Source: an uncultured Candidatus Melainabacteria bacterium
GTDB lineage: Bacteria; Cyanobacteriota; Vampirovibrionia; Gastranaerophilales; Gastranaerophilaceae
Assembly (NCBI GenBank): GCA_947090755.1
Contig: CAMUPF010000016.1
Span: 1 to 40,076 of the forward strand
DNA length: 40,076 bases
Direction of reading: 5' to 3'
The notes beneath the pieces are model-generated. The model was not told where the DNA came from, ran no database searches, and saw nothing but the letters and a program-made list of their open reading frames with translations. This document shows, piece after piece, positions 5,640 to 37,854 of the stretch; the first letter of the stretch is position 1; every line of letters begins with the position of its first letter. The position numbers were made by a program, and so were the translations under genes.

Positions 5640-7349
5640 TTACCACAATATACATTGTTGGGGCGTCGCCAAGTGGTAAGGCATCGGCTTTTGGTGCCGA
5701 CATTCGTTGGTTCGAATCCAGCCGCCCCAGCCAGACTGAACAGAGGTTAGATTTTGAGGTCTAACCTCTTGTTTTTTATACATTTTTTGTGGTTCGCAAA
5801 GAGTGTTTTGAGAAGTGCCGAAATTATGGCCGAAATTGCCCTCAAACCCTTGTCCTGCTTGAGGTTCGCAAGATCCGTCATTTTGACCGCCGGTTGTATT
5901 CGAACCCGCGTCGTCGGCTTCCATATAGCAGAAAGGCGCATTTAATGTATAACCGACGTTTCCTTCTTTGAGTTTCAATTCCTTAAACAGAAAACGCAAA
6001 AGAAGTTGTTTATTTTCTATGCTGCGCCCGCCCTTGTATGCGTCGCCCAAGTGCGAAACAAGATCTAACAAGTCAAGGACTGTTTCATTAAATCCGTCGT
6101 CGGCTTCCCCGTGCGCCTTTATTTTGGATTCTATGCGGCTTTTTTTCAACGTTAATTCGTCGCGCTTGTCTTCGTATTGCTCTTTTGTGATTTCATCATC
6201 TAGGCGCATATTAAAGAGTTTTTGCAGGCGTTGTTCGATTTTGGTTAGCTCTGCCCTTAAATGTCCTAATTCCTCATTGCGGAAGTTTATTTCGGCTTCC
6301 TTGGATTGTTTTATATGCTCCCTAAAATCCTTTACCATTGCTTCGGGAATCGTGATCCGGTTTAAGATTGATATTATTTGATTGTCAATTTCTCGTTCCG
6401 GAATATATAAGCGGCCGCCGTTTTCTTTATAACACACAATATAAATGAACTGTTTTTTCTTTACTTCACACGGGCAAATAATGCCGCGGTGATAGTCGGT
6501 AAATATACCTCGATATAGAAACGGTATTTCTCCGTGCTTAAACGGTTTTGCAGATTGTGCAGCCTTTTGTTCTTGACACTTATCCCACAAAGCCTTTGAT
6601 ATTAAAGGTTCGTAAACGTGGTGATGTAGCTTTCCTTTAGCTAACATTTCACCATAATAAAAAGGATTTTGCAGTATATGAAAGATTGAAGTCGCAGTTA
6701 ATTTCTTGCCAGAATATGAGCGAAGCCCCATTGTATCAGCCATTCTTGCGAGTTTATGCGCGGAAGTTCCGCCGATTGAATAGGTTTCAAACAGACGGCG
6801 AACTTTTGTTGCGTCTGGTTCTTTCGGCCGGATTGAGTGTTTACCGGTTTCATCAACAAAATTTTCATAACCACAAGGCGCGACTCCGGATCGCTCTCCG
6901 TTTTTTAATTTATAATCAAGTGAACGACGGACATTTTCCGAGAGTTGCAGGACATAAGCCTTCGCACCCATAACCGAAAAATCCCACCGCATAATGTCCG
7001 TTGAGGTGGATTTTTTACCGATAACCATTCCTTCGCGGAAAAAGTGGAGTTCTATTTTTTCCTGCCGGATCAGGTCGTCAAGCATAACACTTTCTTTGAA
7101 GCTGCGTTGCACGCGATCCACAGCGTCGGCAACAATGGCGATTGTTTCTGTTTGTTCTTTGCAGAAGTCAATCATCTGCAAAAATTCTTTACGTTTGCCG
7201 CGTGTTGAACTCTCTATAATTTGAAAAGTTTTAATAACCTCAAGCTGTTTTCTTTTCGCATAATCTAAAAGGCGCGTATTTTGAGCCGGTAGGCTGTGGC
7301 CTTCCTCTTGCTCCCTCGTTGATACTCTTGTTAATATTACGGCCTTCAT
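5640..7349 (-). CDS. Large serine recombinase (prophage integrase)
   Basis: A 569-residue large serine recombinase, the only integrase in the element. The N-terminal resolvase domain (about 1-140) has the nucleophile Ser10 and Arg8 in the motif TRVSTREQ. A recombinase domain follows (about 155-260), then a zinc-ribbon-like part with Cys292, Cys294 and Cys306, and a coiled coil (about 345-415). It is the last gene of the leftward early operon. The last ~100 residues look unlike protein: low complexity, with the CEPQ motif twice, and the final 31 codons are simply the reverse strand of tRNA-Gln. The phage-encoded C terminus was probably altered when integration joined the gene to host DNA. The Shine-Dalgarno is weak, so translation may be coupled to the overlapping upstream gene. 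Confidence 0.9.
   Translation of the reverse strand: MKAVILTRVSTREQEEGHSLPAQNTRLLDYAKRKQLEVIKTFQIIESSTRGKRKEFLQMIDFCKEQTETIAIVADAVDRVQRSFKESVMLDDLIRQEKIELHFFREGMVIGKKSTSTDIMRWDFSVMGAKAYVLQLSENVRRSLDYKLKNGERSGVAPCGYENFVDETGKHSIRPKEPDATKVRRLFETYSIGGTSAHKLARMADTMGLRSYSGKKLTATSIFHILQNPFYYGEMLAKGKLHHHVYEPLISKALWDKCQEQKAAQSAKPFKHGEIPFLYRGIFTDYHRGIICPCEVKKKQFIYIVCYKENGGRLYIPEREIDNQIISILNRITIPEAMVKDFREHIKQSKEAEINFRNEELGHLRAELTKIEQRLQKLFNMRLDDEITKEQYEDKRDELTLKKSRIESKIKAHGEADDGFNETVLDLLDLVSHLGDAYKGGRSIENKQLLLRFLFKELKLKEGNVGYTLNAPFCYMEADDAGSNTTGGQNDGSCEPQAGQGFEGNFGHNFGTSQNTLCEPQKMYKKQEVRPQNLTSVQSGWGGWIRTNECRHQKPMPYHLATPQQCILW
5659..5733 (+). tRNA. tRNA-Gln (anticodon TTG)
   Basis: The full cloverleaf can be folded. 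Acceptor arms TGGGGCG and CGCCCCA pair perfectly. The anticodon stem TCGGC/GCCGA encloses the loop TTTTGGT, giving anticodon TTG. The T-arm GTTGG-TTCGAAT-CCAGC is canonical and the 3' end GCCA is encoded. The prophage begins immediately beyond its 3' end, so this tRNA is the likely integration locus and remains intact. Confidence 0.97.
5742..5777 (+). terminator. Rho-independent terminator after tRNA-Gln
   Basis: Perfect 10-bp stem (AGAGGTTAGA / TCTAACCTCT) with an 8-base loop, followed by TGTTTTTT. It lies 8 bases past the tRNA 3' end. If it is host DNA, the left attachment core lies to its right. It also lies inside the recombinase reading frame, on the other strand. Confidence 0.8.
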
Positions 7350-26302: not shown

Positions 26303-27820
26303 ATGCCTAAATTACCGGTTTATACAAGAAATAGCCATATAAACGCTTCTCCTATCGTAGAAAGACGGTCAAGCGGACTTACTGAAAGTTTAGGGAAATT
26401 CAGCAGTGCGGCTTCCGATCTTGCTGTTAAGTGGCAGGAAACCAAAAACGCGGCTGAAACTCTGGACGGTAAAAACAAAATGGAAGCCGACGTTCAAGAC
26501 ATCTTAATGGAAGCTAACGATTACAACGATTATACTTCAACAAAAGAACTTGAAGCAAAGGAAGCGGAGTTATTGCAGAAAGCACGCCAAATTCCGCAGA
26601 ATATTGTCGCAGGTTTTGGAACTGATACAAACGCGAGTGATTTTATCCGCCGTTCAGAAATGGACACAGTTCGAACAGAAGCGCAGATAAAAAACATATT
26701 CCGGAGAAAATACATCGACAACAATAACGCAAACCTTATTGTTTCGGAAGATAGAAACCGCGAAAACTTTATTTCAACCGGAAATGCTGCCTTTAGGAAC
26801 TCTTATCTTGCGGACTTGGAAAATTCGTTTAAAGCCGGATTTATTGACAAAGCAGCCTATACACAAGCCAAGCTGAAAACGGAAGACTGGGAAAAGTATA
26901 TGCTTTATAGACAGGCCGAAAGCAATCCGCAGGCTGTTATTGATAACTTAAAATCTGGAAAATACCAAATAAAGCCGGAAGATTACAACGACGTTTTGAA
27001 AAACTTAAATTCAATCAAAACGAACGATGAACTTATGCGGAACTACGAAGAAGCCGTCCGGCAAAACACCGGAGAAAGTAACGCCATGGACTATATTTAC
27101 AGCAACGCTTCTTATGCAGACAAGCTAAAATATATAAATGACGCAGAAATACGGGGGGATATTAGCGGGTCTTTTAGTCAAAAGGCAAGACGTGCAATTA
27201 AGCAATTCAAGCCGGACGGCGGCAAAACCATGTCGCAGGCTCAAAATATTGCAGAAGTATTGCAGCGTGCCTATGATTTGAACGAAGGAAATTTTGATAG
27301 CACAGAATATCTTAACGGTATTCGTGATTTACGTTCTTCTATTACCGAAGCCGTGAATAATGGTGATATTTCCTATAAAGACGGTGTTACTCTTAACAAC
27401 CAGTTGAACCAAGCAACACGAAAGAGGATAAGCCAAGAAACAAACGCGGTTAGTTATCAATTCGGGAAAACGATTGATTTTTTCAAAGAAAGTTTGCCGC
27501 CGGAATTTCAAAACGACGCAATCCGAGAATTATTTTATCAAACGCAAGATATTGATGACAGTCTTTCAGATAAAGAGAAACAAAAGATTTATCGCGAAAA
27601 GGCTGTTTCCGTTGTTGATAAAATAAAAATTGATAATCGCCTAGCTGCCGAAAAGGCATTGGCAGATATGCAAACTCAACTGTCTTCCGACTTTATTCCA
27701 ACGATTGCGACAAAGTTGGGAATTAGTGAAGAAGATTTGAACCGGAAAATCGACCACACAGCAAAACGACACGGAATGACGCGTGAACAAGTGGTGCAGC
27801 AGCTCTCAAAAGGATTATAA
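26303..27820 (+). CDS. Internal virion protein C (T7 gp15-like)
   Basis: A 505-residue, mostly helical, charged protein starting MPKLPVYTRNSHINASPIVE. Long helical segments with Asn/Lys/Glu-rich composition match the gp15-type internal core protein that, with gp16, spans the periplasm during DNA ejection. Function is assigned from gene order (gp14-like, then this, then the giant protein) and general composition, not from a specific motif. Shine-Dalgarno GGGGG. Confidence 0.72.
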   Translation: MPKLPVYTRNSHINASPIVERRSSGLTESLGKFSSAASDLAVKWQETKNAAETLDGKNKMEADVQDILMEANDYNDYTSTKELEAKEAELLQKARQIPQNIVAGFGTDTNASDFIRRSEMDTVRTEAQIKNIFRRKYIDNNNANLIVSEDRNRENFISTGNAAFRNSYLADLENSFKAGFIDKAAYTQAKLKTEDWEKYMLYRQAESNPQAVIDNLKSGKYQIKPEDYNDVLKNLNSIKTNDELMRNYEEAVRQNTGESNAMDYIYSNASYADKLKYINDAEIRGDISGSFSQKARRAIKQFKPDGGKTMSQAQNIAEVLQRAYDLNEGNFDSTEYLNGIRDLRSSITEAVNNGDISYKDGVTLNNQLNQATRKRISQETNAVSYQFGKTIDFFKESLPPEFQNDAIRELFYQTQDIDDSLSDKEKQKIYREKAVSVVDKIKIDNRLAAEKALADMQTQLSSDFIPTIATKLGISEEDLNRKIDHTAKRHGMTREQVVQQLSKGL

Positions 27821-27821
27821 A

Positions 27822-30800
27822 ATGCAGGACAACGACGATTTATTTCAACTTATGGGGATCACTCCAAACGGAACAACGGAAGATCCGGACGATTTGTTCG
27901 GCGGGAAAATTCCAACCGCAGCAGAAACAAATAAAACATTGTTTGAAAGCAATATGATTGACATTGATAGTTTTGTTTCTGAAAAGCGAAAAGAGTGGAA
28001 AGGCAGCTTTTTAAATGCCATATCGGATCTTTCGCGAGATAAAGACGGAAACACAGAATTTCAGTGGTATAATCCGACAAGTTGGATCGGATCGGCGATT
28101 TCTGCATACAGAAAGCCTATTGACGAGCGTCTTGATTTTTTGGAAAAAAACAAAGAAACGGTTAGCAATCTTGTAACTCAAGAACAGTTGCAAGAGTTCG
28201 TCGACAAGGGGGCTATTGGTGTTTTTGAAAGCGCAAAGCGCAATCTTAAATGGGGAAACGCCCCTTTTGTCGGTGCTTTTGTTGAGGGTTATCAAAAAGG
28301 AAAATTGGCCGACATTATGGAAAAAATCAAAAACGACGAGGTTTTGAGCGACGTAGAAGACGAAACCGTCAAAGAATACATTATGGACGGCGTTGAACAA
28401 ACACTTCGCGGCCACTCTATTGGCGGTCGTATTGTTGACGGATTAGCTGCCATGCCTGCTTTTATGATTGAATATGCAGTCGCAAAAGGCCTTGTCGGGG
28501 CTGCCGGAAAGAAAATCGCAGCAACCACCGCAGGAAAAAAAGTTGCAGAAATCGGGGCGAAATTTACAGCAAGCGGAAAAATTGGATCTGCTGCGGCTAA
28601 AACCACAGCAACAATCGGGACAGCCGCGGGACGTGCCTTGTTTATGCCGCAGCAGGTTTATAATAATTACAACGACATTCGCTTAAATTCAGCTTATAGT
28701 TTAGGCGAAAACGGTCAATTTCTTTTTAATGAGGATCAGGATAAACCGGCAACAATGCTGCTAAAGGCCTACGGATTAACCGCAATAACAGCCCTCGCAG
28801 AAGATTCCGGCGAAGCAATAACCGGACTTGTAAAAAAAGGTGTTAGCCCTATTTACAATAAACTTCCGCCAAAAGTTAGAAACGGTATTGTTAAACTTGC
28901 CCGCCAAACAGAAAAATACAAAGATACGCCTATTTCAAAAATGTTTGAAGCGGGCGGATATAGTAACGTTTTAGGGGAAATTGGCGAAGAACGCTTGGAA
29001 GATCTATTGGGTGCGATTACCGGACTGAACCCGCAAGGCGACAATTATTTTGATAGCATAGGCAACGCCTTAATGCCCGACTTCGATCAGTTTCTAGTTG
29101 AAGCCGGAGTTGTTAGCATTGCAGGCGGCGCACGTTCTGGGCTCAACTATCTCTACGCAAAGGGATTTAATCCTTCTTTATTAAAAGGACTTTCCACAAC
29201 TGAACAGGACAAACTTGTTGAACGTGAAGTTAAAAAGGAAGTTGGGGATTTAAATCCTTCTGTTTCAATCTACGAAGTGCCGGTTGATAAAATCACATTG
29301 TCGCCGGACATTCCAAATTTTAAGGAAGGTGCCAACGAAAACGGCGTGGTAACAGGCGAAGAATTGCAGGGAACTTATGATCGTTTAGGAACTGCGCCGA
29401 TTGTTGTCTGGGAAAGAAACGACGGAAGAATGGAAGTTATCACCGGAAGACACCGGCTAGATCTCGCCAAACGCACTGGAGAAATTACCATTCCGGCGCA
29501 GGTTGTGAGAGAAGCGGACGGATTCACTGCTGAACAAGCGCGTATGCTTGATGTCGAACAAAATATCAAAGATGAAAAAGGAACGATCCGCGATTATGTC
29601 CGCTATTTCCGAGAAAAGAAAATGTCTAAAGAAGACGCAGAAAGAAAAGGATTGTTGCAGCGCAAGGGCGGCCACGCCTTTGTTATTGCAAACGACGCGG
29701 CAGAAGGTCTTTATTCTTTGTTTATTAACGGAAAGATAAGCGACGCAAAAGCGGAAGCTATTGCCAAGGGCGCACCAAAAAATGAAGCAGCACAAAATGC
29801 AGCTATAAAATCAGCCGACAAAATGACGGCCGAAGAACTGCAAGCCTACACTTCATTACTTGGACAGATGAAGCCGAAACAAGATGTTTCGGGGGATTTG
29901 TTCGGGTTTGACGATAGCGCAACGAAGGAAGCGGAAGCTATTGCAAAACTTGTTGCCAAAGATAAAAAGGACATTGACGCTAAAATTTCGGCCGTGCGTG
30001 GTGCTTTGAAGAATCCGGAAGTCGCAAAAAAAATGGGGCTTTACTTCAAGGCTACACCCGAAACAATCGGTCAAGAGGTTAAAAAACTGTTATATCAGAA
30101 ACAACAGCTTGATAATTTCTACACCGACGCAAAGTTAATGAAACATTATCGCGCTTTATTGGAAGGCAAGAAAGAAAGTGTTTTTGACTTGCTGCCCGAC
30201 GCCGTTCCGGAAAATTTCTATCCGGAAGAAAGCAGCGACACAAACCAAACGGACGAAGCCACAGACAAACAAAACGGCAAAAAAGAAACTGATCCGGCAG
30301 AAATAAAACTGGACGATAGCGAAACATTTGTCGAAATTGCAAAAAGAAAATGGCTTGATGACGTCGCGCCGTTGGAGAAATTAGCAACTGACGATCGCGT
30401 TAATCTTGAAGACGGACAGCGTCCGGATTTATTGGCTCGTGCTTATCAATATTCTGCACGCATGATTGAAACAAATATTAACGATCAGACGTATTATATT
30501 GACGAACAAGGAAACGAAGTTGTAACAGGCGAGGGATTAAGGCCTATCTTAAAGGACTTTTTCGCCATTTCTCACGATGTGGAGCCAAACGCGGAAGTTG
30601 CCCGTCAAGATCTTAACGACTTTCTTGTTGCAAGGCGTTATTTGCAAGACTTGAACGAGATCGAAGGTGTCGAAGTTACCGACGAGCAAAAACAAAAATC
30701 CGCAGCAGATTTGCTTCGATTAAGCGCAAAATACGGCGATAATATGGAAATGTTTGTTGATTTTTCAAACAGAATCTACAATTTTCAAAAACATATTCTT

Positions 30801-33485
30801 GAAAACCTTGTTCGTTCTGGCAACCTCAGTCAAGAACAGTTTGACGAAATAACGTCAAAACATCAGCATTACGTCCCGTTTAAGCGTGTTCTTGAAGACA
30901 CAGACATAACAGGAATAAGCAATCGTGGCGTATTTGATGAAACAAAAACAAGCAAAGTTGTTAAGCGCATTAAGGGATCGGACAAAGACGTTAAAGATGT
31001 GTTTGTTTCAATCGCAAACAATGCGGCCAAAACGCTTGATCTAGCATATAGAAACAGAATTGCGCGCGCTGTTGCCGACCTTAAAGAATTTATGCCGGAG
31101 TATGTAAAGGCTAAAAGGCCTATTTACGAACACGGAACGGCTAAAACAAAAGTCGCCTACGATCCGCGTTTTCGGCAACAACTTGAAAAGGCTATCGCTT
31201 TTTTTGGTGGAAAGGTTGAATATGTTAAATCCATTGGACGCGGCAAAAGTGAAGGAATGATCTTGGGAGTTTATAACTCAAAAGAAAATTCAATTCGAAA
31301 AAGACTTGGAGCGCAAGACAGAACTTTATCACATGAGTTCGGCCACTTATTAGACTTTGCTTTTGGTATTAGTGAACAAATACAAAGCTCGCCTGTTATT
31401 CTTAAAGAAATAACAGATCTTGCCGAAGATCGTTTTTTTGGCGTTGTTGGTTTAACTACAAACAAAAAAGGAGAAAATACTTATATTGAACAAACAGCAA
31501 AACTTCCGGACGACTACGTCGAATATGTTAAAAGTATTCGAGAATCCGTTGCGAATGCTTTTGATCTCTATTTTTCTTCACGCGACTACATGAAGAAGAA
31601 AGCCCCCGAAACTTATAAACTATTTGAAAAAATGTTTAATGTTCCGGCCGTTCGCTTTTTGAAAGAAATTCGCCCTTCTTCCGCTTCGGCAATGGAAGAA
31701 ATCGAAACCGACGTTTTTATTCCGTCGCGTCAAAAACCTTATGGAAACGTGATCGAGTATTACGAGGACGGCAAAAGAAAGTTTGTCGAGGTATCAAAAC
31801 CGCTTCATGAAGCTATGCACAAATTAAGCCCTATACAGCTTGGTTTTGTTTCAAAGTTTTTGAAAGTGTTTAGTATGCCTGCAACATTACTTCGTTGGGG
31901 TGCTACAAATACGCCCAACTTTATTATAAGGAACTTCATAAAAGATCAGTTCACCGCATTTATTCAAACCGATCAAGGAATGAAGACCACACCGCTTCAA
32001 ACGATTAAGGCCTTATGCACAATCATAGGTAAAGGAAAACTTTATGCTGATTGGGAAAGATCGGGCGGAGCCGGTGGTGGTTATTATGACTGGAGCGAAA
32101 AAGGCGCGCAGAAATATCTTGAGGAAATCCAAAACCCGAAAGGACGTTTTGTTAAGGCTCTTAAAATTATGGAAGACACCGGTTGGACAGATTGGCGAAG
32201 ATATGTAAATATTGCGGCCTCTCCGTTCACGACGTTAGTGCGCGGATATAATAAACTTATCAGCACGCCTTCACAGGCCGTTGAAGAAGCGACGCGTCTT
32301 GGTTCTTACAAAAAAGCCAAAGAAGCCGGTTTATCTGATTTAATGGCTGCACACAAAAGCCGCGAAGCAACTGTCGATTTTGGACGCGGTGGCGAAGTTA
32401 GCCGCATTGTCAACAGGATTGTCCCGTTTTTCAATGTTGGGCTGCAATCCGCAAACAAACTTTACAGGACGGCAAAAAACAATCCGACGGCGTTTTTGTT
32501 CAACTCGCTTGCGACGATCGCGTTTCCTTCGATTGCGATAACAGGTTATTATCTTTACGGCGCGTCTGACGATGAGCGGAAGCGTTGGCTTGAAATACCT
32601 GACTATGTTCGCGACAATAACTGGTGTTTCTTCTACAATGGAGAACTCTTTACATTTCCTAAACCTTTTACAGTTGGTTACATGGGAACAGCCTTTGAGG
32701 ACTTTTTGATTTGGGGATATAAAGGAGAGAAACCGGAAACACGCGAATTTTACGAGTTATTGGCCGGAATGTTCGGATCTCTTTCGCCGGTTCAGACGTT
32801 GGGTTCATTATTATCGCCTGTCGGACAAGTGGCCGTTGAAGCGACGACAAACTATAATTTCTTCATGGGACGTTCAATTTATCCGAAGTGGCTTGAAAGC
32901 CTGCCGCCGGAAGAAAGGAAGAACAAGACAACGTCGCAGCTTGGAACATTTATCGGGGAAAAGTTGGGCGTTTCACCCGCTATCGTCGATAACACAATGT
33001 TCGGTTTAACCTCTACACTCGGGAAGCAGACTGTCGGCATGGCCGAAAATATGCTTGACGACTTCAAACGTTGGAACGGAGAAGAAGTCCCCGAAAATAT
33101 TATTATAAAAAAGGACATTCCGCTTGTCGGCGCGTTGGTTGGTAGACTTCCTGACGGAACTCGGAGCAAGTCTTATCAACACTTTCAAAACGATTATACC
33201 GAATTTATGCAAATAAATTCAGCCTATAATCAAAGACAAGGTTTGGAAAAAACAAAATATAAAAACGAACACGCCTTCGAACTTGCGGCTTTTAAATCTA
33301 TGAAGACAAGTAAAAAGCAGCTTCAAAAGATTTATAAAGAAATCAACCGTCTTTATGATGACCCGCGAATGTCTGCACAAGACAAGACTGACGCAATTAT
33401 GAAACTTGAGAAACAAATAACTGTTGTCGCTCGCGAAGCCAACAAAAGAACGGCTGAAATAAAAAGAAAGTTTGAAGATCAATGA
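27822..33485 (+). CDS. Giant ejected polyvalent protein (ParB-like, HExxH, LPD38-like)
   Basis: Start at 27822 (MQDNDDLFQL), one base after the previous stop. At 1887 residues this is the largest gene. Visible parts: an Ala/Gly-rich hydrophobic stretch (about 217-270); a ParB/Srx-like domain (about 480-640) with VITGRHRLDLAKR; a zinc metallopeptidase motif HEFGH (1171-1175); and, from about 1355, LLRWGATNTPNFIIRNFIKD, resembling the large polyvalent protein domain LPD38. By position it corresponds to T7 gp16, but I see no transglycosylase motif. Polyvalent proteins of this design are thought to enter the host with the DNA and counter defences. Catalysis by the peptidase is inferred from the motif only. 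Confidence 0.82.
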   Translation: MQDNDDLFQLMGITPNGTTEDPDDLFGGKIPTAAETNKTLFESNMIDIDSFVSEKRKEWKGSFLNAISDLSRDKDGNTEFQWYNPTSWIGSAISAYRKPIDERLDFLEKNKETVSNLVTQEQLQEFVDKGAIGVFESAKRNLKWGNAPFVGAFVEGYQKGKLADIMEKIKNDEVLSDVEDETVKEYIMDGVEQTLRGHSIGGRIVDGLAAMPAFMIEYAVAKGLVGAAGKKIAATTAGKKVAEIGAKFTASGKIGSAAAKTTATIGTAAGRALFMPQQVYNNYNDIRLNSAYSLGENGQFLFNEDQDKPATMLLKAYGLTAITALAEDSGEAITGLVKKGVSPIYNKLPPKVRNGIVKLARQTEKYKDTPISKMFEAGGYSNVLGEIGEERLEDLLGAITGLNPQGDNYFDSIGNALMPDFDQFLVEAGVVSIAGGARSGLNYLYAKGFNPSLLKGLSTTEQDKLVEREVKKEVGDLNPSVSIYEVPVDKITLSPDIPNFKEGANENGVVTGEELQGTYDRLGTAPIVVWERNDGRMEVITGRHRLDLAKRTGEITIPAQVVREADGFTAEQARMLDVEQNIKDEKGTIRDYVRYFREKKMSKEDAERKGLLQRKGGHAFVIANDAAEGLYSLFINGKISDAKAEAIAKGAPKNEAAQNAAIKSADKMTAEELQAYTSLLGQMKPKQDVSGDLFGFDDSATKEAEAIAKLVAKDKKDIDAKISAVRGALKNPEVAKKMGLYFKATPETIGQEVKKLLYQKQQLDNFYTDAKLMKHYRALLEGKKESVFDLLPDAVPENFYPEESSDTNQTDEATDKQNGKKETDPAEIKLDDSETFVEIAKRKWLDDVAPLEKLATDDRVNLEDGQRPDLLARAYQYSARMIETNINDQTYYIDEQGNEVVTGEGLRPILKDFFAISHDVEPNAEVARQDLNDFLVARRYLQDLNEIEGVEVTDEQKQKSAADLLRLSAKYGDNMEMFVDFSNRIYNFQKHILENLVRSGNLSQEQFDEITSKHQHYVPFKRVLEDTDITGISNRGVFDETKTSKVVKRIKGSDKDVKDVFVSIANNAAKTLDLAYRNRIARAVADLKEFMPEYVKAKRPIYEHGTAKTKVAYDPRFRQQLEKAIAFFGGKVEYVKSIGRGKSEGMILGVYNSKENSIRKRLGAQDRTLSHEFGHLLDFAFGISEQIQSSPVILKEITDLAEDRFFGVVGLTTNKKGENTYIEQTAKLPDDYVEYVKSIRESVANAFDLYFSSRDYMKKKAPETYKLFEKMFNVPAVRFLKEIRPSSASAMEEIETDVFIPSRQKPYGNVIEYYEDGKRKFVEVSKPLHEAMHKLSPIQLGFVSKFLKVFSMPATLLRWGATNTPNFIIRNFIKDQFTAFIQTDQGMKTTPLQTIKALCTIIGKGKLYADWERSGGAGGGYYDWSEKGAQKYLEEIQNPKGRFVKALKIMEDTGWTDWRRYVNIAASPFTTLVRGYNKLISTPSQAVEEATRLGSYKKAKEAGLSDLMAAHKSREATVDFGRGGEVSRIVNRIVPFFNVGLQSANKLYRTAKNNPTAFLFNSLATIAFPSIAITGYYLYGASDDERKRWLEIPDYVRDNNWCFFYNGELFTFPKPFTVGYMGTAFEDFLIWGYKGEKPETREFYELLAGMFGSLSPVQTLGSLLSPVGQVAVEATTNYNFFMGRSIYPKWLESLPPEERKNKTTSQLGTFIGEKLGVSPAIVDNTMFGLTSTLGKQTVGMAENMLDDFKRWNGEEVPENIIIKKDIPLVGALVGRLPDGTRSKSYQHFQNDYTEFMQINSAYNQRQGLEKTKYKNEHAFELAAFKSMKTSKKQLQKIYKEINRLYDDPRMSAQDKTDAIMKLEKQITVVAREANKRTAEIKRKFEDQ

Positions 33486-34694: not shown

Positions 34695-35753
34695 ATGGCT
34701 GACACTATTACAAAAAGAATACGAATGCGCCAAGGCGATAGCGCAACCGCACGCGCCTACAATGAGGTGCTGCGCCAAGGGGAAGCATTTTTTGAAACTG
34801 ACACCGGAGATATTAAAGTCGGCGACGGTGAAACAAAATATAATTCCCTGTTAGGTATTGTTTCGGAAAGCAAAATTGCGCAAGCAATCGCCAACGGGAC
34901 ATATATGGGGAAGGATTTAGCGGTTAAATTTAAGGCTGAAATTGACTTGCTTTATAAAGGCGATGTCGTTGACTGGCTGCACGCACGCGTCCAGTCTGGA
35001 AATTTTACTGGTATTTATCCGTTTGATTATATCCATATTAACACAAATGCTGGAACGGTTGCCGGTGTTTCAATTCCGGCCAAAAGCAGAAAGTTCATTA
35101 TTGCCGGTATTAACCTTTATAAAGGGACAGGCGAACAGGAAATAACGCAAAACCATATAACCATGTTCGCGCTTGCTGACGAGAAGGTAACATGGAACGA
35201 TGTAAACAATAATAACGGCACAGCCGCGAACGAATACCCGTGGAAGGCGTCAAAACTTTATGCCGTGTTAAATGGTATCAATAACGCTTCTTCAAATAAA
35301 GTCGGGGCGTGCGGCTTTAATGCTGCCGGTGCAGGATATTTGCAGTTATTCCCGACAAAAGTTCAAAACCTTATGCTTAATCAGCAAGTCCACATGGGGA
35401 AACGTTACAGTTCGACTGCGGTTCTGACTGATGACAATTCGCAAGGTTGGACGGAACGCGGCAAACTCTTTGCCCCAAGTGAAATTGAAGCCTATGGCTG
35501 CGCTATTCATGCCTACAAAATCAGCGGTGCAGGAAATAGCGAACAATATGGTCCGTGGTGCCATTGGCCTATTTTCCGAAATGCAGGGAATACCGGACGT
35601 TTGATTTACGCAAACCGTGCGACCTTCTGGCTTTGCTCCGTTCCGTTCGGGGTTTCTACGCTTGCCTGCAACGTCAACGGCTCCGGCACTGCGGACTGCG
35701 ACAACTCGTCCACCACGTGGCTACGCGCGCCGCTCTGCTTCCATTTCGCTTAA
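34695..35753 (+). CDS. DGR target: Mtd-like variable receptor-binding protein
   Basis: The leader GAAAGGAATATAAA gives the start at 34695. A 352-residue protein. The N terminus (1-55) matches the Mtd N-terminal repeat type: RIRMRQGDSATARAYNEVLR then ETDTGDIKVGDGETKYNSL. The C-terminal half (about 170-352) ends in a C-type-lectin-like fold pattern, with RATFWLCSVPFG and TWLRAPLC. The variable repeat covers residues 308-350. Positions encoded by changed template adenines are T310, V320, L323, S330, T332, D334, D336, S338, T340 and C348 (plus a silent change at G319). It should bind the host receptor at the tip of the tail. Confidence 0.92.
   Translation: MADTITKRIRMRQGDSATARAYNEVLRQGEAFFETDTGDIKVGDGETKYNSLLGIVSESKIAQAIANGTYMGKDLAVKFKAEIDLLYKGDVVDWLHARVQSGNFTGIYPFDYIHINTNAGTVAGVSIPAKSRKFIIAGINLYKGTGEQEITQNHITMFALADEKVTWNDVNNNNGTAANEYPWKASKLYAVLNGINNASSNKVGACGFNAAGAGYLQLFPTKVQNLMLNQQVHMGKRYSSTAVLTDDNSQGWTERGKLFAPSEIEAYGCAIHAYKISGAGNSEQYGPWCHWPIFRNAGNTGRLIYANRATFWLCSVPFGVSTLACNVNGSGTADCDNSSTTWLRAPLCFHFA
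35616..35742 (+). repeat. DGR variable repeat (VR)
   Basis: 127 bases at the 3' end of the target gene, aligned without gaps to the template repeat 642 bases downstream. Thirteen positions differ and each corresponds to an A in the template. It ends in the G/C-rich ACGCGCGCCGCTCTG, equivalent to the IMH of Bordetella phage BPP-1. Confidence 0.97.
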
Positions 35754-35763
35754 CTCTTAAACA

Positions 35764-35786
35764 GCGGACGGGTCTATCCCGTCCGC
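35764..35786 (+). other. DNA hairpin downstream of the VR
   Basis: Perfect 9-bp stem GCGGACGGG / CCCGTCCGC with loop TCTAT, 21 bases after the VR end and 10 after the target gene stop. There is no T-run behind it, so it is not a terminator. It matches in place and form the hairpin/cruciform that boosts homing in BPP-1. Confidence 0.82.
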
Positions 35787-35808
35787 AATACTATAAAGGT
35801 TTAATAAA

Positions 35809-36234
35809 ATGCCCGTTTATTCAAAAGATAGAAAAATAACTCAAATTCAATATATTGTTACGGCTCAAAAATTGCAGCACGCAATCATAAGTTTTACAAT
35901 GAACGAAAACCGTTTTCCTAAAAAGTGGCGGTATATGATCGTTCAAGATATAATATTAAAGGCTAGTGAACTTGTGGACAATGCTATCGCGGCAAACAGT
36001 ATTTACCCAAACACCGAAGAACGTTTGCAGCTTCGTAAAAAGTATTTACAACAAGCAGCTATTAACGCCTATCAACTCGTTAATAAGTTTGAAGTGGCCG
36101 AAAAGGTTGTTGTTTCAGACGACGGGAAAAAGAAAGTAAACGCAAATAGTTTAAGCAATATTTCAAGTTTGTTGTTTGATGAAATAAATTTGCTAAAAGG
36201 ATCTTATCAAAACGCAAAAATCATCAAACAGTAA
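35809..36234 (+). CDS. avd: Avd-like accessory protein of the DGR
   Basis: The 141-residue protein is nearly all helix, of the four-helix-bundle Avd type, with the family-typical ENRFPKKWRYMIVQDIILKA segment (residues 32-51) and a basic surface. In BPP-1, Avd forms a pentamer that binds the RT and template RNA and is essential for mutagenic cDNA synthesis. It lies between VR and TR, the standard Avd place. Shine-Dalgarno AAAGG. The name is used in the family sense. Confidence 0.88.
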   Translation: MPVYSKDRKITQIQYIVTAQKLQHAIISFTMNENRFPKKWRYMIVQDIILKASELVDNAIAANSIYPNTEERLQLRKKYLQQAAINAYQLVNKFEVAEKVVVSDDGKKKVNANSLSNISSLLFDEINLLKGSYQNAKIIKQ

Positions 36235-36257
36235 AAGGTTTAATGTTGTTAATCGTG

Positions 36258-36384
36258 CGTGCGAACTTCTGGCTTTGCTCCGTTCCGTTCGGAATTTCTA
36301 CGAATGCCTGCAACGTCAACGGCAACGGCAATGCGAACTGCAACAACACGTCCAACACGTGGCTACGCGCGCCGCTCTGATTCC
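36258..36384 (+). repeat. DGR template repeat (TR)
   Basis: 127 bases in the gap between avd and the RT gene, 24 bases after the avd stop. Twenty-seven adenines, most in AAC/AAT codons of the VR frame. Thirteen of them differ in the VR (to C, G or T) and none of the 100 other positions differ. The following 243 bases (36385-36627) up to the RT hold no open frame and probably form the spacer RNA used for priming. Confidence 0.97.
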
Positions 36385-36627
36385 TAAAGTTTTTATATGC
36401 CCGTCTTATTAAGCCATTGCGGCCGAACACAGCGCATTTAAGAGGAAGGAACGTTAGACCTGTTTCATTTATGAACAAATAAGAACCTTGACGATGAACG
36501 ACGGACGCCCCCAAAAAATGGGAGTGCATAGCAAGAGAACGCGAACGGACGCTTGTTTTATGTCGTGGCTTTATGAGGTATAATTCCGTTCACAGCCTTG
36601 CAGGGTTTATTTTTTTTAGGAGATAAA

Positions 36628-37854
36628 ATGACAAGACGAAGCAAACGCTTCGAACGACGTTTTGCAAAACGTCAAGAAAAGCAAAATAAGTTCTTAAAAC
36701 AATATGATAATTTTGAAAATGTATGTAATCGTTCAAGTTTATACAAAGCCGCCGATCATTCAAAAGTGAATGTATTGTGGAAGGCTAGCGTTCAAAATTG
36801 GAGCATTAACCAGCTTTTAAATACTGAACGGCTTTACCGCGATTTAATTTCCGGCCGTGATGTTAGAAAGGGATTTTCAAAGTTTGTCATATATGAACGC
36901 GGAAAGAAACGTAATATTTCAGCAGTTAGATTTTATGAACGCGTTGTTCAAAAATCTTTATGCGAAAACGTTTTATATCCTATTTATACAAAGTCTTTAA
37001 TTTATGATAACGGCGCAAGCCAGAAAGGCAAAGGCGTTAAGTTCGCGCAGGATCGTTTAATTACGCACTTGCGGCGACATTTTAGAAAATACGGAAAAGA
37101 AGGATATATTCTTTTGATAGATTTTAAGGGATATTTTGACAATATCGATCATGAAGTCCTTAAATCCATTTACCGAAAAAAGATTAAAGACGTTCGATTG
37201 CTTAAACTGATAGATGATTTTGTTGACGCTTACGGTGAAAAAGGTTTAGGGCTTGGCTCTGAAACTTCGCAAATGCACGCGATCGCTTTACCAAACATGA
37301 TCGATCATGCTATTGTTGAAACAATACAAGGCGTTTCGTTTGGCCGATATATGGACGATAGTTATGTAATCGCAAAAGATAAAAGCGTTTTATACAAGGC
37401 GTTAGATATTATCAAACGAATTTGTTTGAAGTTGAAAATCATTTTATCAGAAAAGAAAACAAAAATAATCAGTCTTAAAAACTGTTTTACCTACTTGAAG
37501 ACAGTTTTTCATTTTACAGATACGGGAAAGATTATCAAAAAACCTTGTCGGCGCAATGTTACAAGACAGCGTCGGAAGGTCAAAAGACAAATACGACTTT
37601 TGAAAGAAGGGCGTCTTAACGTCAAGGAATTTCAAAAGTCATTTGAAAGTTGGGCGGGATCAATGCTGCGGCGCAACGCCCGACTGACTGTGTGGAATAT
37701 GCGCCGCCTTATTAGAAAGGAGTTTTTGAAATGCCAGAAGAAAACAAAAAAACAAGGTCGGAAATTGAAGGGCGTATTAACGCGTGCAATCAGGAACTTT
37801 GCACCTATGACTACGCCGCGCGTAAAGTGGCGTTTGAAACTGCAAGAACTTTGA
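36628..37854 (+). CDS. DGR reverse transcriptase
   Basis: Start at 36628 (MTRRSKRFER) behind AGGAG; a longer frame starting 30 bases upstream lacks this site. The 408-residue RT shows the palm motifs: catalytic Asp165 in ILLIDFKGYFDNID, the motif-4 analogue GLGLGSETSQ (206-215) with the SQ pair typical of DGR RTs, and YMDD (241-244). It copies the TR RNA with adenine-specific errors, and the cDNA replaces the VR. The C terminus is very basic and overlaps the next gene by 124 bases. No maturase or endonuclease domain is present, which argues against a group II intron. Confidence 0.95.
   Translation: MTRRSKRFERRFAKRQEKQNKFLKQYDNFENVCNRSSLYKAADHSKVNVLWKASVQNWSINQLLNTERLYRDLISGRDVRKGFSKFVIYERGKKRNISAVRFYERVVQKSLCENVLYPIYTKSLIYDNGASQKGKGVKFAQDRLITHLRRHFRKYGKEGYILLIDFKGYFDNIDHEVLKSIYRKKIKDVRLLKLIDDFVDAYGEKGLGLGSETSQMHAIALPNMIDHAIVETIQGVSFGRYMDDSYVIAKDKSVLYKALDIIKRICLKLKIILSEKKTKIISLKNCFTYLKTVFHFTDTGKIIKKPCRRNVTRQRRKVKRQIRLLKEGRLNVKEFQKSFESWAGSMLRRNARLTVWNMRRLIRKEFLKCQKKTKKQGRKLKGVLTRAIRNFAPMTTPRVKWRLKLQEL

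Follow-up and report, generated by a model that had tools for sequence, protein, structure and literature searches.

Diversity-generating retroelements (DGRs) are common in gut prophages, where they form a known and widespread type. The closest described systems are those of phage BPP-1 and Roseburia phage Shimadzu, together with the clades of gut viral DGRs in Roux et al. 2021, the text of which mentions neither a hairpin nor IMH (PMC8144416). According to a published rule the DGR target hairpin has a GRNA loop, which BPP-1 needs (PMC3240598), and GRA triloops have been reported for archaeal DGR hairpins (PMC4372165). In BPP-1, RT-Avd is recruited by the spacer RNA, which also primes cDNA synthesis (PMC12875486). 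Here we analyzed a stretch of 40,076 nucleotides (the window), and the results point, with a probability of about 0.96, to a complete DGR, carried by a temperate and probably short-tailed phage of an alphaproteobacterium, that could rewrite the tip of the phage's receptor-binding protein. The first-pass annotation had recognized a complete element of the Mtd-Avd-TR-Brt type in the tail module, and the A-only mismatches, the reverse transcriptase (RT) tree and motif, the Avd fold and the lectin-like target all agree with it. The features are collected in Table 1.

Table 1. Features of the DGR, in window coordinates.
Feature	Position	Strand	Remarks
DGR target (variable protein), 352 aa	34695..35753	+	Mtd_N at aa 10-47, predicted C-type-lectin-like C-terminal part
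Variable repeat (VR), last part of target gene	35616..35742	+	12 positions read as mutagenised, plus one fixed boundary difference
IMH-like zone at VR 3' end	35723..35742	+	A-free run CGCGCGCCGCTCTG, then C at 35738 (TR: A); 122/122 relatives
DNA hairpin	35764..35786	+	9-bp stem GCGGACGGG/CCCGTCCGC, loop TCTAT; 21 nt after VR
Avd-like accessory protein, 141 aa	35809..36234	+	Four-helix bundle; profile and fold
Template repeat (TR)	36258..36384	+	27 A, 26 mutable; ends in IMH*, TGA in target frame
RT-2 structured RNA (Rfam RF03077)	36395..36628	+	Probable DGR spacer RNA; Rfam match, covariation
DGR reverse transcriptase, 408 aa	36628..37854	+	LGSETSQ and YMDD motifs intact

The VR and the TR, which had been placed correctly in the first-pass annotation, are each 127 bp long and start 642 bp apart. 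They differ at 13 positions, all of them TR adenines (6 A>C, 4 A>G and 3 A>T), and the other 100 bases are free of mismatches. The probability that 13 of 13 mismatches fall on A by chance, with 27 A among 127 bases, is P = 1.05e-10. As a control, the same base-biased repeat search was run with each target base over 176 related loci. Repeat pairs were detected at 144 loci when A was the target base, and at 1, 6 and 1 when it was C, G and T, respectively. No second VR was found elsewhere in the same MAG. At three other loci a second VR lies 3-4 kb downstream and matches the same TR, giving two targets per DGR (L154, 6498-6624; L189, 7731-7824; L192, 7976-8069).

The earlier claim that all 13 mismatches lie on TR adenines was correct, but only 12 of them appear to be mutagenic. 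The repeat ends in GAT in the TR and GCT in the VR in 122 of the 144 relatives with a TR/VR pair, and the boundary change was from A (TR) to C (VR) in all 122 scorable relatives. Random misreading is not expected to turn A into C every time, which argues for a fixed IMH/IMH* boundary mark at 35738 and for mutagenesis as the source of the other 12 differences. As expected of a DGR, the IMH at the VR differs from the IMH* at the TR. Adenines within 15 nt upstream of the boundary site are rare and were changed in 2/28 cases; farther upstream about half were changed, as is typical of an IMH set against an IMH*. In the target's frame the TR of the window reads TGA, a stop codon, at the boundary, as it does in 42/115 relatives. 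No stop can arise in the TR codons holding the other 26 adenines. Ten of these codons are AAY and four others can change, so that by arithmetic 15^10 x 4^4 = 1.5e14 proteins are possible.

The YMDD RT noted before has an intact frame and intact motifs. Its best PDB match was 8ub7 (E 2.6e-16), the BPP-1 DGR RT, an entry titled "Diversity-generating retroelement ribonucleoprotein reverse transcriptase". The motif LGSETSQ fits [ILV]GxxxSQ, like the IGSLTSQ of BPP-1 and unlike the QGGxxSP that all four group II intron RTs compared with it have. A tree of 68 RTs, the check proposed in the first-pass annotation, placed all DGR RTs on one side with an SH-aLRT of 100 against group II; the RT of the window was inside a 55-row gut clade (support 100), separate from the side of BPP-1 (91). 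The likely start is the ATG at 36628, which follows a good Shine-Dalgarno sequence, and not the TTG at 36598.

Fold comparison was needed for the Avd-like and target proteins because neither sequence profile had a useful match in the PDB. The Avd-like product matched phrog_3206, "Avd protein of DGR" (E 3.6e-6). Its model (pLDDT 90) matched BPP-1 Avd at Z 14.2 (4dwl) and 14.6 (8ub8), and it also matched S23/IVP-family bundles, higher, at Z 15.8-16.5. Profile and fold thus upheld the Avd-like gene. In the target model, most residues of aa 71-270 and 311-352 had pLDDT values above 90, and those of 271-310 values of about 65-77. Its best match was 9qa6 (Z 13.6). Residues ~90 to 352 matched C-type lectins, TvpA and Mtd at moderate values (Z 3.8-6.7), with a modest Z of 3.8-3.9 for BPP-1 Mtd. 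Of the aligned targets of relatives, 27/33 had DUF6273, a domain whose likeness to C-type lectins has been reported for DGR targets elsewhere (PMC10743442). The VR lies near the 3' end of the target gene, and the model places it inside the predicted C-type-lectin-like domain. With an Mtd N-terminal domain and lectin-like folds predicted for the C-terminus, the VR-carrying gene fits the receptor-binding role assigned to it previously.

The expected DNA hairpin was found downstream of this gene, with a 9-bp stem and a 5-nt loop (z -5.1 as DNA). It has the stem of the BPP-1 type (7-10 bp, GC-rich) but not its 4-nt GRNA loop. The same script returned GAAA for BPP-1, GGTA for VHML and GATA for both ACA1 and phiARM81mr, all of 4 nt and consistent with the GRNA rule. 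A GC-rich hairpin follows the VR in 96 of the 114 non-redundant loci of the clade, compared with 3.0 (sd 1.3) after shuffling. Loops of 5 nt, with the consensus YTTRT, were present in 63 of the 96, and GRNA in none. At L235, with a target 54% identical, the stem is the same as in the window and the loop is CAAGT. No description of a pentaloop DGR hairpin was found in the open-access literature searched.

An element absent from the first-pass annotation, the RT-2 RNA, scored 68.8 bits against a gathering threshold of 40. No match to Phage_DGR (RF03022), the nearest DGR RNA known in Rfam, was found between the TR and the RT of the window; RT-2 is there instead. In the tested relatives of the clade RT-2 was mostly at the same place, and the eight DGRs taken from the opposite side of the RT tree all lacked it; of these, BPP-1 has RF03022 there and BalMu-1 has RT-14. 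In an alignment of 17 RT-2 copies, 25 of the 31 predicted pairs showed two-sided compensatory changes. By analogy with BPP-1, RT-2 is probably the DGR spacer RNA with the same role. The RT-14 RNA of Bacillus phage BalMu-1 (L212, 2813-2956) also lies between TR and RT; despite its neutral name it is, like RT-2, probably the spacer RNA of a DGR. A type II hammerhead ribozyme match lies near another gut DGR (L055, 8020-8084).

Among relatives sharing a TR exactly or almost exactly, VRs differed at 415/907 TR adenines and at 11/2420 positions elsewhere, which argues, from these clade relatives, that the DGR machine is active in the clade. Variation as frequent off adenines, the outcome that the first-pass annotation had set against a DGR, did not occur. 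Several pairs are otherwise identical over 250 bases upstream; examples of their differences at A and elsewhere are 17/0 (L098/L164), 23/0 (L114/L116) and 17/0 (L134/L135). A search for the exact TR stretch in viral contigs gave none, and TR-region DNA compared with 288 genomes of the MAG's family matched the window itself, the rest being short chance matches. This phage may continually rewrite its receptor-binding protein, as proposed before. Three other loci (L012, L013 and L014) share a TR, have three different VRs and come from genomes assigned to three genera, which points either to one phage type having spread recently or to mis-binning. Two pairs of almost identical DGR loci, L114/L116 (Mailhella/Selenomonas) and L090/L091 (Paludibacteraceae/Eubacterium), come from MAGs labelled as different phyla and are probably binning errors of prophage contigs.

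The DGR might nonetheless have decayed, with its anatomy persisting, the element silent and the 12 differences old; searches for a second copy of this phage, which could show a recent VR change, found none. Against this, the RT frame and motifs are intact, the Avd frame is open, the RT-2 RNA scores above threshold, and the 100 non-A positions of VR and TR are still identical, where old neutral copies would differ. We therefore regard decay as improbable. It is similarly unlikely that the pentaloop hairpin is the transcription terminator of the target gene and no retrohoming element. The GC-rich stem directly after the stop codon would suit a terminator, but no T-run follows it in the window, its recurrence in relatives (96/114, compared with 3.0 shuffled) comes with a constrained loop, and the proven hairpin of BPP-1 is at the same place (PMC3240598). 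The possibility that the RT is that of a group II intron or retron beside an unrelated direct repeat is negligible. A group II RT is the best NCBIfam model, but its score of 70 bits is below the cut-off of 300. The tree and the motif refute an intron RT, for which QGxxxSP and a place in the intron clade are expected, and the A-only mismatches and the conservation of TR/VR in 144/176 relatives (controls, 1-6) contradict it as well.

For an active DGR, RNP assembly, priming, retrohoming and receptor switching can be envisaged on the BPP-1 model. The avd-TR-spacer transcript would be bound by RT and Avd via the structured RT-2 RNA, and the RT would copy the TR into cDNA, misreading adenines. This cDNA would replace the VR between the IMH zone and the upstream homology, aided by the hairpin. 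The TR would be left unchanged because its IMH* has A where the VR has C. The receptor-binding protein would thereby acquire altered lectin-like tips, with ~1e14 proteins possible and no stop codon. The TCTAT loop, where BPP-1 needs GRNA, and RT-2 in the place of RF03022 speak against this scheme.

The call of an alphaproteobacterial host stands despite the different lineage of the MAG bin, in whose family most of the named members carry the label Candidatus Gastranaerophilales. The host-side NrdA of the window shares 84-89% identity with that of genomes from the order to which an Alphaproteobacteria MAG belongs; 30/125 genomes of this order have NrdA. The window's NrdA had no match in genomes of its own MAG's genus and only distant ones in the family of that MAG. 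Over 78 bases the tRNA-Gln matches that of the alphaproteobacterium carrying L041 without a difference, and it is 86% identical to the MAG's copy on another contig. Together, these similarities suggest that the contig (1-40076) is mis-binned and best read as alphaproteobacterial. The two closest alphaproteobacterial MAGs were searched for a class I NrdB and had none. A serine recombinase gene (5640-7349) overlaps with its 3' end the tRNA-Gln (5659-5733, opposite strand), and the two are likely a prophage integrase and attachment site. No convincing att direct repeat was found between this region and the contig's right end, the longest being 15 bp. The 1900-aa product of 27783-33485, beside the tail genes, contains LPD38 and a stretch resembling a metallopeptidase (ATLF) below threshold, and may be an ejected protein of the polyvalent type. 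The same MAG has a second, distantly related DGR at the end of a contig (L002, G000:C19; repeats 1-157 and 1096-1252, RT from ~1293), with 15/16 mismatches on A and an RT that groups weakly, on a very long branch, with BalMu-1.

The element is in kind an ordinary, well-formed DGR, one more of a well-populated group. At the level of the clade, we lean slightly towards the view that this large group of gut-phage DGRs has its own landing-site code, consisting of the YTTRT pentaloop, a fixed GATT (TR)/GCTT (VR) and the RT-2 spacer RNA, as a separately evolved recognition system, possibly unreported before. The target hairpin loop, GRNA-bound in BPP-1, is a pyrimidine-rich pentaloop in most hairpins of the clade; Rfam's plainly named "RT-2 RNA" family occupies the place of the BPP-1 DGR RNA; and a single A/C position tells TR from VR in every scored relative. 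These features offer direct tests of landing-site choice by DGRs, and they warn that this clade will be missed or mis-annotated by tools built on the rules of BPP-1.

Compared with the BPP-1 DGR (mtd-avd-TR-brt), the locus shares the gene order, A-only mismatches, Mtd N-terminal domain, Avd fold, YMDD RT, a hairpin after the VR and a structured RNA between TR and RT. It differs in its RT, ~25% identical and on the opposite side of the DGR tree, in its loop (GAAA in BPP-1, TCTAT here), in having RT-2 in place of Phage_DGR RF03022, and in its GATT/GCTT boundary mark, where BPP-1 has its own IMH*/IMH. The DGRs of the gut viral clades in Roux et al. 2021 (PMC8144416) are likewise phage-borne, in gut bacteria, with C-type-lectin tail targets and A bias. 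The nearest relatives, a prophage of Alphaproteobacteria MAG RGIG6619 (L041) and IMG/VR L121, have RTs 63-64%, targets 52-53% and Avd proteins 43-50% identical; however, their TRs differ, and L041 has no detected hairpin after the VR. The DGR of Roseburia phage Shimadzu (LR596903) has a clostridial host and other target and TR sequences, but it shares the tail fibre-Avd-TR-RT-endolysin order, an RT 51% identical, the RT-2 RNA, the CTGATT/CTGCTT boundary and a pentaloop (CTCGT).
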